From Bythopirellula polymerisocia (GTDB lineage Bacteria > Planctomycetota > Planctomycetia > Pirellulales > Lacipirellulaceae): a stretch of 64,000 bases of DNA. Every line of letters starts with the position of its first letter. Position 1 is the first letter of the stretch. Made by a program: the position numbers and the translations under genes. The notes under the pieces were generated by a model, which had not been told where the DNA came from, did no database searches, and saw only the letters and a program-made list of their open reading frames with translations. The stretch is taken from positions 62,001 through 126,000 of the forward strand of contig NZ_SJPS01000007.1 in the NCBI RefSeq assembly GCF_007860015.1, given 5' to 3'. Shown in pieces: positions 21,094 through 60,973 of this stretch.

Positions 21094-21104
21094 AAGGAAG
21101 AATT

Positions 21105-21128
21105 GCACAGAGATTACAATCCCTGGGC
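21105..21128. repeat. Palindromic repeat, CCCTGGG family, copy 1 (left arm degraded)
   Basis: GCACAGAGATTACAATCCC followed by TGGGC. The right half is identical to the other copies; the left half has diverged. It begins 11 bases after the ion-channel stop. Confidence 0.55.
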
Positions 21129-21643
21129 ATTGCGTCCTGAAATTTAATGAAGCAGCTGTAACATGATGAAGCGAAAATTGGAGACTCCGTATAGGGCGTG
21201 GTCTTTTGTGTTGCAGCGGGGTTGATGTTGCGAGTCGGTTGGGTGTTCTTACCTGGACATATCGGCGCCTATTATGTCTCCGAGGATTTTTCCAAGGTTC
21301 GCGAGCAGTTTTACCTGTGGATCTGGATGTGTCGAGTGCGTATTTGTGGCATGGTTATTACGGCGATCACATTGTTGGCAGTGGCAGCTATACTCGCGGA
21401 GGAATCTTTGCCGGATTGCGATTTGGCCAGGGGTTGGCGAAGCGACGGGGGTGGCGATTGGGAGAGTTGAGAGTTGAGTGTTGAGGGATATCACTTGCCC
21501 GCGGATTGCAAAATCTGGGCGATGGGAGAAATTGCTTCTCGGTTTTTTATTGCTGAAAGTAGACGCTGTTGTGTAGGATGGATACTTGCGAAGCTCTGAT
21601 ATGCAGGGAGCGTTCCATCCTGACACTTATGGCGGAGGATTCA
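21129..21643. other. Spacer with a possible decayed gene
   Basis: About 515 bases between the repeat and the next gene. One plus frame (about 21320-21460) contains DVSSAYLWHGYYGDHIVGSG followed by a Gly-rich stretch that resembles an outer-membrane or secreted protein fragment, but it has no start or clear family. Purine-rich words (GAGAGTTGAGAG at 21462-21473) follow and recur at 22505-22516. The end of the stretch must hold the promoter of the PEP-CTERM gene. Confidence 0.35.
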
Positions 21644-22513: not shown

Positions 22514-22542
22514 GAGAGAGTGGCGTCGGGAGAAAAGAAATC

Positions 22543-22566
22543 GCCCAGGGAGTGCAATCCCTGGGC
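22543..22566. repeat. Palindromic repeat, CCCTGGG family, copy 2
   Basis: GCCCAGGGAGTGCAATCCC followed by TGGGC: an almost perfect 24-base palindrome in the 81-base gap between two convergent genes. It may serve both as terminator. Confidence 0.7.
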
Positions 22567-22594
22567 GTTGCGAAGAGCGGTTCTCAGCCGTTAT

Positions 22595-23800: not shown

Positions 23801-23970
23801 GGAAAGGTTCCTTGTGAGAGAGGGTCGTTTGGTTCGTTAGCAGGTGCCGTAATCGGCTCAAATTGAATGAGCGTAGGGACGCGAGAAGTGTTACAGGGGA
23901 AAGCAGCGTGCTAGCAGGGGTGGTTCGGCCTTGCAGGGCTGGCGGGGTTTGGGGAAGATTCGCCGGTTTT

Positions 23971-23998
23971 GGTCCGTGGCCCGTGGTTCGTTGTCAGT
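23971..23998. repeat. Left arm of an inverted repeat flanking the lipoprotein gene
   Basis: 28 bases starting GGTCCGTGGCCCGTGG. It is complementary to 24788-24815 at 22 of 28 positions. The arms stand on either side of the gene at 24001. Confidence 0.5.
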
Positions 23999-24000
23999 AG

Positions 24001-24756
24001 ATGGAATCTCGAAACAAAAAGAAGAGTGTGCAACGCCTAGCGCTTAAACGCCCAGGGATTGCAATCCCTGGGCTTTGCTGCGCTTTGGTGGTCGCACTTA
24101 TGTCGGGATGTCATCATTTTCAAGAGGCACCTGTGCCGCTGACGGCGCCAGTGGTAGGAACCGCCCAGCCAACGTTTGTAGCACCTGGCGGAGCGAACTC
24201 CCTTTTTCAGGCACCACAAATGGGACAAACCCAGTCAGAGCCTACAGTCACCCAAGGAGTGTTAGTCCCCGTTGTGAACGAAGACTTTGCCTGGGAACAG
24301 ATCGTCGACGTCGTAGACGACTACTTCCGAGTCGATCAAGAGAATCGCGTGCAACTGGTGGGCAATGTGCTGACCGAGGGTCGCATCGACACATTTCCGC
24401 AGGTCGGCTCAACACTGCTCGAGCCCCAGATGCGTGACTCCGTGGGGCGCTACAATCTATTCGAAAGCACTTTTCAAAGCATTCGCCGCCGAGCGGAGAT
24501 CAGGGTAATTCCCCAGCAAGGGGGCTGGTTTGTAGAAGCGATTGTACAAAAGGAGATTGAAGACCTGCCACGCCCCGAGAACTCTACGGCGGGGGCGGCC
24601 GTATTTCGTAGCGACAACTCACTTCGCAGTAACATGAATGAGCAGGTCAGTCGCACCCGGCCGAGTGCCTACTGGATCCCGCTGGGACGGGACTGCGAAG
24701 TTGAACTACAGATGCTCGAAGATATTCAAGAGCGACTGACGAACCCGAGGGAGTAA
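24001..24756 (+). CDS. Lipoprotein with a repeat-derived signal peptide
   Basis: 251 residues. The N-terminus is basic (MESRNKKKSVQRLALKRPG), then hydrophobic, with the lipobox LMSGC, so Cys should be lipidated. The codons for RPGIAIPGL are a perfect copy of a 24-base palindrome found in nearby spacers. The body has WEQIVDVVDDYFRVDQENR, EPQMRDSVGRYNLFESTFQS, IRRRAEIRVIP and WFVEAIVQKE. I do not recognise the family; it looks like a conserved envelope lipoprotein. The gene is bracketed by imperfect 28-base inverted repeats. No ribosome-binding site is visible before the ATG. Confidence 0.75.
   Translation: MESRNKKKSVQRLALKRPGIAIPGLCCALVVALMSGCHHFQEAPVPLTAPVVGTAQPTFVAPGGANSLFQAPQMGQTQSEPTVTQGVLVPVVNEDFAWEQIVDVVDDYFRVDQENRVQLVGNVLTEGRIDTFPQVGSTLLEPQMRDSVGRYNLFESTFQSIRRRAEIRVIPQQGGWFVEAIVQKEIEDLPRPENSTAGAAVFRSDNSLRSNMNEQVSRTRPSAYWIPLGRDCEVELQMLEDIQERLTNPRE
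24050..24073. repeat. Palindromic repeat, CCCTGGG family, copy 3 (inside a CDS)
   Basis: A perfect palindrome containing CCAGGGATTGCAATCCCTGG, in frame within the lipoprotein gene and encoding RPGIAIPG in its signal peptide. Confidence 0.8.
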
Positions 24757-24787
24757 ATGACCAATTTGCATCGACCAATGACCAACG

Positions 24788-24815
24788 ACTGATAACCAAC
24801 CACTAACCACCGACC
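24788..24815. repeat. Right arm of the inverted repeat flanking the lipoprotein gene
   Basis: 28 bases starting ACTGATAACCAACCAC, the imperfect complement of 23971-23998. It overlaps the last codons of the histidine kinase gene on the minus strand. Confidence 0.5.
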
Positions 24816-58618: not shown

Positions 58619-60973
58619 ATGACTTCCGTCGGAAAACCATTGCCCCATGATTCGGCTCGAGGGCACGTCACCGGTAGCGCCTTGTTTATCGATGATATGC
58701 CTGCCCAGGTCGGGGAATTGCACGTCGGATTCGTCGGTAGTCCGGTTGCCTGTGGTGAGATCATGCGAATCGATGTGGAAGCCGCGTTGAAAACGCCTGG
58801 CGTGGTGGCTTGTTACACAGCTGAAGACGTGGCGGGGCACAATGTTTTTGGCCTGATCGTGGCCGATGATCCGTTCTTGGCCCAAGAGGAAGTGATGTAC
58901 GTCGGGCAACCGGTAGTGGTGGTGGCTGCCGAGAACCCAAAGGCATTGGAGCTTGGTCGTCGGGCGGTGGTGATTGAATGCCGTGAGCAAACGCCTGTGC
59001 TAACCATCGAACAGGCGATTCAAGCGAATCGCTATCTGGGTCCCGTGCGAAAAATCGCACGCGGCCGAGTCGATGAGAATCTCGCCTCCGCGCCTCATCG
59101 AATTGCGGGGACATTCAAAAGCGGCGGGCAGGAGCAGTTTTACCTTGAATCCCAAGCCGCCCTCGCTTATCCGGGGGAGCAGGGGCAGATCGTCGTGCAT
59201 TCTTCCACACAGAATACGACAGAGATTCAAGCGGTTGTCGCCGAAGTTTTAGGCCTGGGGCAGCACGAGGTGATTTGCATCTGCAAACGGATGGGGGGTG
59301 CATTTGGTGGCAAGGAAACCCAGGCAGCGATTCCCGCGATCATGGCGGCGTTAGTCGCGTCGAAAACAGGCCGCGCGGCTCGCGTGATCTACAACAAAGA
59401 CGACGACATGTGTGTCACCGGCAAGCGGCACGAATACTTTACGCGTTGGGATTGTGGATTCGACAATGCAGGGCATTTGTTGGCACTGCGATGTGAGTAT
59501 TTTTCCAATGGTGGGGCTACGACCGATCTTTCTCCCTCGGTGATGGAACGCACTCTGCTACACGGCGACAACGCCTACTTCCTGCCGCATGTGGAGTTCA
59601 CGGGTAAGGTCTGTTTTACGAACCTGCCGCCCAATACCGCATTTCGCGGTTTTGGCGGTCCGCAGGGGATGCTTGTCATCGAGAATGTGTTGGAGACGAT
59701 TGCCGAGAAGCTGGGGCTCGATGCTTTGCAAGTTCGCAGGGCCAATGTCTACGGCGTCGGCACCCGCAATGTGACTCCCTACGGTCAGGTGGTCGACAAA
59801 AACCATTTGCCCGAAATTTTTGAAACGCTGGCCGCTGATTCGGATTACGAGCGGCGGCGAGAAGAGATTGCTCAGTTCAATGCCAAGTCACGTTTGCAGG
59901 TGCGTGGACTCGCACTGACTGGGATGAAGTTTGGCATCTCGTTCACAACCAAGTTCCTAAATCAGGGAAACGCGCTTGTGAATGTATACACAGACGGCAC
60001 GATCCAGGTCTCGACTGGGGCGACCGAGATGGGGCAGGGGGTCAACGTAAAGATTCGACAACTGGTGGCCGACGAGTTCGCGATCGATCCCCGTCGCGTC
60101 TTGATGATGGCCACCAGCACTGAGAAGAACAACAATACTTCGCCCACTGCCGCCTCGGCCGGCACCGACCTCAACGGGGCCGCCGCCGTGGTGGCCTGTC
60201 AGGAAATCAAGACGCGATTGCGGTCATTTGCCGCCGAGCATCTGGCCGACAGCGAGTCGGGGTTGGTCGCTTCGCCGGAGCACATCTGCTTTGCCGAAGG
60301 GACTGTGCATGACGACCGGCGCCCGCAGGTTCGGATTCCGTTCGAGCAACTGTGCGAAGATGCCCGGCGGGATCGGGTCGATCTCGGTTCTCGCGGGTTC
60401 TTTGCCACACCGGGAATCGACTTCAACCGCGAGACGGGGCGCGGCACACCGTTTTTCTATTTCACCCAAGGGGCCGCCGTAGCCGAGGTGGTCATCGATC
60501 GCTTCACCGGCGAGATGCGCGTGCTACGCGTTGACCTGCTGATCGACATCGGCAAGTCCATCAACCCGGGTGTGGATCGAGGTCAGATCATCGGCGGCTT
60601 CGTGCAGGGAATGGGCTGGGTCACCAACGAATGTCTCACTTATAATGACAAAGGTGAATTGCTTTCGCACTCGCCGACGACTTACAAGATCCCTGCTGTG
60701 ACCGACATCCCCCCTGAGTTCAACGTGCGGATGTTCCCCAACCATGACAACACCCAAAACATTGGCAGCAGCAAGGCCGTCGGCGAACCACCACTGATGT
60801 TGGCATTGAGTGTGTGGGCAGCGGCCCGCAATGCGATTTCCTACGTGAAACCGGGGGCCGAGATTGATTTGAAGTCGCCCGCCACAGGAGAAGAAATCCT
60901 CCGCGTGATAACAGCACTCCAACAAGATACAGAACCAACTCAGCTTCCAGGGATTGTAATCCCTGGGCGTTAG
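58619..60973 (+). CDS. xdhB: Xanthine dehydrogenase molybdopterin-binding subunit
   Basis: 784 residues. The a/b hammerhead starts GKPLPHDSARGHVTGSALFI. Molybdopterin-binding segments include CICKRMGGAFGGKETQA, NTAFRGFGGPQGMLVIE, STGATEMGQGVNVKIRQ and SPTAASAGTDLNG. The catalytic Glu is residue 723 in SKAVGEPPLMLALSVW. The enzyme hydroxylates hypoxanthine/xanthine to urate. Its last codons (PGIVIPGR and stop) coincide with a copy of the CCCTGGG palindrome, so the natural C-terminus has been rewritten by the repeat. xdhC follows 40 bases later. Confidence 0.93.
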   Translation: MTSVGKPLPHDSARGHVTGSALFIDDMPAQVGELHVGFVGSPVACGEIMRIDVEAALKTPGVVACYTAEDVAGHNVFGLIVADDPFLAQEEVMYVGQPVVVVAAENPKALELGRRAVVIECREQTPVLTIEQAIQANRYLGPVRKIARGRVDENLASAPHRIAGTFKSGGQEQFYLESQAALAYPGEQGQIVVHSSTQNTTEIQAVVAEVLGLGQHEVICICKRMGGAFGGKETQAAIPAIMAALVASKTGRAARVIYNKDDDMCVTGKRHEYFTRWDCGFDNAGHLLALRCEYFSNGGATTDLSPSVMERTLLHGDNAYFLPHVEFTGKVCFTNLPPNTAFRGFGGPQGMLVIENVLETIAEKLGLDALQVRRANVYGVGTRNVTPYGQVVDKNHLPEIFETLAADSDYERRREEIAQFNAKSRLQVRGLALTGMKFGISFTTKFLNQGNALVNVYTDGTIQVSTGATEMGQGVNVKIRQLVADEFAIDPRRVLMMATSTEKNNNTSPTAASAGTDLNGAAAVVACQEIKTRLRSFAAEHLADSESGLVASPEHICFAEGTVHDDRRPQVRIPFEQLCEDARRDRVDLGSRGFFATPGIDFNRETGRGTPFFYFTQGAAVAEVVIDRFTGEMRVLRVDLLIDIGKSINPGVDRGQIIGGFVQGMGWVTNECLTYNDKGELLSHSPTTYKIPAVTDIPPEFNVRMFPNHDNTQNIGSSKAVGEPPLMLALSVWAAARNAISYVKPGAEIDLKSPATGEEILRVITALQQDTEPTQLPGIVIPGR
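60947..60968. repeat. Palindromic repeat, CCCTGGG family, copy 4 (3' end of xdhB)
   Basis: CCAGGGATTGTAATCCCTGG plus GC. It is in frame in the last codons of xdhB and encodes PGIVIPG, followed directly by Arg and the stop. Confidence 0.75.

Follow-up and report, generated by a model that had tools for sequence, protein, structure and literature searches.

The window (the whole stretch of DNA analysed, 64,000 nucleotides from Bythopirellula polymerisocia) contains a gene for a 251-aa lipoprotein (Table 1), and 57 of 59 relatives, as distant as members of the same order, have an orthologue. No Pfam match was obtained for the protein. Scanning the genome contigs with the single lipoprotein sequence gave no match, a profile scan of the same contigs gave 29 loci, none of which was taken as a closer relative, and no homologue was found in viral contigs. 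The signal region comprises a basic n-region, a hydrophobic core and a lipobox with an invariant cysteine, as is characteristic of Sec/SPII lipoproteins. Due to an in-frame TAG at 23998-24000, which directly adjoins the ATG at 24001, no in-frame start further upstream is possible. Alternative starts are GTG 24028, TTG 24085 and GTG 24088, and among these a signal peptide results only from GTG 24028. We presume from these sequence features that the frame is used from 24001 or 24028 and that the product is exported and lipidated.

Both flanks of the gene carry features of their own. A leader at 23912-23966, conserved in the genus and situated at the same place in L002-L012, consists of CTAGCA, (C)CTTGC and then GAAGATTCGCCG at fairly constant spacing. 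It possibly represents the promoter together with the 5' leader, and no likeness to a sigma-70 consensus site was found in it. A degenerate GACCAATGACCAACGACTGATAACCAACCACTAACCACCGACC stretch lies at 24757-24815, between the lipoprotein gene and a convergent histidine kinase gene.

Table 1. Features of the lipoprotein locus and repeat copies in the window
Feature	Position	Strand	Remarks
Lipoprotein gene	24001..24756	+	ORF, 251 aa; coding score 99
Predicted lipoprotein signal peptide MESRNKKKSVQRLALKRPGIAIPGLCCALVVALMSG	24001..24108 (from 24028 if GTG used)	+	based on sequence, upstream TAG and Gly36-Cys37, invariant in 13/13 aligned orthologues
Lipobox Cys37 codon	24109..24111	+	lipobox LMSGC; Cys invariant in 13/13 aligned orthologues
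In-frame 30-bp repeat copy AACGCCCAGGGATTGCAATCCCTGGGCTTT	24047..24076	+	1 mismatch to consensus; same place and frame in G005
Perfect 24-base palindrome GCCCAGGGATTGCAATCCCTGGGC	24050..24073	+	repeat core; encodes (R)PGIAIPG(L), codons 17-25
Repeat copy in usual place	22540..22569		flanked by the stops of two convergent genes, at 26 and 25 bp
Degenerate repeat copy	21102..21131		8 bp after stop of ion-channel gene
Degenerate repeat copy AGCTTCCAGGGATTGTAATCCCTGGGCGTT	60942..60971	+	last 9 residues, LPGIVIPGR, of gene 58619-60973; not in G005 orthologue

The preliminary description of this DNA had reported that the palindrome is perfect, in frame and encodes RPGIAIPG, with the basic N-terminus on one side and the hydrophobic run that ends in the lipobox on the other. 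All of this is borne out by the sequence, in which the palindrome-encoded residues are followed by LCCALVVALMSGC up to the lipobox cysteine. The 24-base core was delimited correctly as well, but the unit to which it belongs is 30 bp long and reads AACGCCCNGGGATTGCAATCCCN'GGGCGTT, and starts other than ATG also have to be considered.

The palindrome is a member of a dispersed family with 26-28 copies in this genome (G000). With up to 3 mismatches allowed, the palindrome pattern occurs 4 times in the window and was absent from 100 shuffles, and the 22-base core has 28 occurrences in G000, 15 in G005, 13 in G004 and 64 in G007, all of one genus. Elsewhere the repeat was confined to certain members of the same genus; no match to the core was obtained in the 8 genomes tried outside the genus, and its reversed control gave 0 matches in any genome searched. 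The consensus of 40 aligned copies is a 30-bp sequence, AACGCCC-N-GGGATTGCAATCCC-N'-GGGCGTT, and almost every copy has an N' complementary to its N; the form AACGCCCN...N'GGGCGTT recurs regardless of context. The unit can be read without a stop in each of its three distinct frames (NAQGLQSLGV, TPRDCNPWA and RPGIAIPGR). When 36 distinct copies were compared, 93.8% of cells preserved the 13-pair hairpin, and 21 cells were double-changed, compared to 3.3 in shuffles (0 of 500 shuffles contained as many). The intergenic copies clearly keep their hairpin through paired changes.

Genes around the copies were called with a simple hexamer-based finder, for which the same loci served as training set. 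By these calls, 44 of 57 copies from three genomes lie no more than 60 bp past a stop belonging to a facing gene (42 within 40 bp), compared to 472 of 1951 random intergenic positions (24%). Given this placement, the repeat normally forms a 3'-end RNA hairpin in the manner of REPs (repetitive extragenic palindromes). The copy at 24047-24076 is placed otherwise: it lies not 3' of a stop, but at the 5' end of a coding sequence that has a divergent gene upstream, where it separates the basic end of the signal peptide from its hydrophobic core. Two further copies, L107:3753-3782 and L140:395-424, were tried as intragenic candidates and rejected; they are open in frame with the adjacent gene, and a longest-ORF rule would call them coding, but each is probably situated upstream of the true start and hence 5' untranslated. 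A small ORF in L127 is doubtful.

The closest orthologue of the lipoprotein, that of G005 (83% identical), carries AACGCCCTGGGATTGCCATCCCTGGGCTTT at the same place and in the same frame; its start codon would have to be TTG (or GTG). Over codons 16-29 the two genes differ at 5 bases, all 5 of which are synonymous, so that both encode the same KRPGIAIPGLCCAL (P about 0.0007 in a simulation with random placement), whereas 13 of 17 adjacent signal codons are changed in their residue. The repeat considered alone accounts for 2 of these differences, both synonymous, which is weak (P 0.09). Both of them disrupt pairing (T.T and C.A); for the isolated G005 hairpin -15.6 kcal/mol is predicted, compared to -23.9 kcal/mol for the consensus. 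Synonymous-only changes in combination with an unpaired G005 hairpin fit selection on the peptide better than selection on the hairpin. Thus it seems to be the peptide, and not the hairpin, that has been kept at the lipoprotein copy, judging from two changes, which are few.

These data also bear on the alternative that the hairpin is retained as an element of the early mRNA, attenuating transcription or slowing translation, while translation of the repeat is incidental. Consistent with it, the folding energy of the G000 transcript segment is -28.2 kcal/mol (z -5.6), pairing is preserved by the double changes of the intergenic copies, and most copies occupy 3' ends, a position from which hairpins exert their effect on RNA. 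Nevertheless, the corresponding G005 segment reaches a z of only -1.7 with its two mispairs while its peptide is identical, and a comparable hairpin is missing from this place in the other orthologues. We therefore regard a retained RNA element as rather unlikely.

Except for G005, the orthologues inspected, including that of G004 (70% identical), lack the repeat, and their signals are different but complete signals of the lipoprotein type. Among these repeat-less signals, the shortest (e.g., MRLFLITLCAALGC) has 13 residues before the cysteine. The preliminary description had pointed to the orthologous N-termini as the place to look; the same sequence without the repeat was not found there, as the N-termini differ widely, but the same architecture is present. 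Excision of the 30 bp from the G000 gene does not disturb the frame, and what is left, MESRNKKKSVQRLALSCALVVALMSGC, is a complete lipoprotein signal, with a peak hydropathy over 11 residues of 2.79 compared to 2.72 with the repeat. In the case of G005 the peak is lower after excision (1.91 compared to 2.59). The distance from the leader motif GAAGATTCG to the cysteine codon amounts to 102 bases in G004, 133 in G005 and 155 in G000. When each 30-nt cut that can be made in G005 (103 in all) was judged by alignment to G004, removal of exactly the repeat came first, level with a cut shifted by one base, whereas the same cut in G000 ranks only 60th, due to the poor alignment and about 22 further upstream bases in G000. 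The signal region of the G004 gene (L003, about 1985-2200, - strand) is itself internally repetitive with GAGTTGCGAGTTTCGAGTTGCGAG, and the G004 N-terminus may also include simple repeat sequence.

It had been proposed that the repeat serves as the signal peptide and that without it none would be left. The more modest part of this proposal holds, since the repeat does contribute residues to the signal, in common with G005 and with synonymous differences only. The stronger part does not, because the repeat-less orthologues have complete lipoprotein signals with the same lipobox, so that the repeat merely lengthens the signal, and the loss of the signal had been deduced from the downstream ATG at 24100 alone, whereas the comparison that matters is with the gene after removal of the repeat. 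For a gene that previously had no working signal peptide, and whose export signal was created by the repeat, one may still invoke the 8 to 10 residues which the repeat supplies, and the absence of a signal from that sole downstream in-frame ATG; given the orthologues and the full G000 signal after excision, and despite the lower G005 peak, such an origin is very improbable. On the sequences compared, the repeat adds 10 codons to a pre-existing signal and did not create it.

Many N-terminal REPs have been suspected of being untranslated (PMC3733652), and the copies of L107 and L140 described above look that way too. A start downstream of the repeat, which would leave it 5' untranslated, has accordingly to be weighed for the lipoprotein as well. 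However, the lipobox cysteine follows only 33 bp after the repeat, and starts at 24085, 24088 and 24100 leave 3 to 8 residues compared to the 13 of the shortest orthologous signal. Because post-repeat starts leave at most 8 residues before the cysteine, the published warning fits poorly here; with the differences in codons 16-29 being all synonymous in addition, an untranslated repeat is scarcely to be expected.

In our view the locus is probably explained by insertion of a REP-like 30-bp repeat into an existing lipoprotein gene, after which the peptide was kept while the hairpin lost its pairing in G005. The insertion would have taken place in the common ancestor of the G000 species and its nearest relative, G005, in the 5' part of the coding sequence at the border of the basic n-region and the hydrophobic h-region. 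It would have added 10 codons without a frameshift, given a unit of 30 bp that is free of stops in every frame, and it was presumably tolerated since 30 is a multiple of three, no stops are introduced and signal peptides accept sequence change. The frame used would give RPGIAIPG(L), a mildly hydrophobic and tolerated stretch, and would shift the hydrophobic core and lipobox 10 residues farther from the start. Afterwards the translated peptide would have been kept with synonymous changes only, while pairing of the G005 hairpin was lost. That the repeat was inserted here rather than lost elsewhere is our reading of two carrier species, the polarity resting on the outgroups. It is tempting to speculate, though we would put this forward only tentatively, that RPGIAIPG is now selected as a working part of the signal, e.g., by setting its length or the targeting rate, which would mean that an extragenic RNA-hairpin repeat was domesticated into part of a protein sorting signal with its hairpin decaying.

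A second translated copy was identified at the opposite end of a coding sequence. The TAG stop of gene 58619-60973 overlaps the last base of the degenerate repeat, and LPGIVIPGR is read in the same repeat frame as in the lipoprotein. The G005 orthologue of this gene has a different end, with the alignment halting at the repeat border.

The lipoprotein would thus represent a clean and datable case of a mobile or repetitive palindrome turned into protein, comprising a frame-neutral unit of 30 bp without stops, a tolerant site, two carriers and relatives without the repeat. It also offers a testable contrast, since paired changes preserve the hairpin of the intergenic copies, whereas in the translated copy the peptide persists and the hairpin is lost. 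The view of export signals is unchanged, because the signal predates the repeat.

Like REPs (PMC3733652), the repeat is a short, dispersed palindrome of 20-40 bp with many copies, mostly extragenic near gene 3' ends, just after the stops of convergent or co-directional genes, and with a minority inside genes, N-termini included. Among REPs inside genes, N-terminal ones outnumber those at the end (PMC3733652). In contrast to the GTAG/CGTC superfamilies of REPs, fewer copies are present here, and neither a GTAG nor a CGTC tag was found at the hairpin base or in the aligned flanks, as copies begin with AACG and end with CGTT. No RAYT-type gene flanked by the repeat was seen; in G000, 0 of 6 Y1_Tnp genes have a listed copy within about 5 kb. 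All 14 genomes of the genus contain Y1_Tnp genes, whether or not they carry the repeat, and a link between Y1 transposase and repeat was rejected due to the lack of a flanking pair. For a REP in a signal peptide, no direct precedent was found in the open papers to which the literature search was confined. With intrinsic (bidirectional) terminators the repeat shares a strong G+C-rich hairpin about 10-35 bp after stops, preceded by A and followed by T (T 40% over the 10 bases downstream), but it differs from them in having no consistent T run and a sequence that is fixed among copies.

N-terminal RPE-bearing proteins of Rickettsia are expressed in vivo (cited in PMC3733652). The present repeat resembles Rickettsia palindromic elements (RPEs) in that several frames are open and that it is translated in frame within an otherwise conserved protein, the lipoprotein copy being missing from the repeat-less orthologues. 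RPEs are longer and are frequent inside genes. Unlike them, the unit described here spans 30 bp and its translation is the exception, with two sites found.
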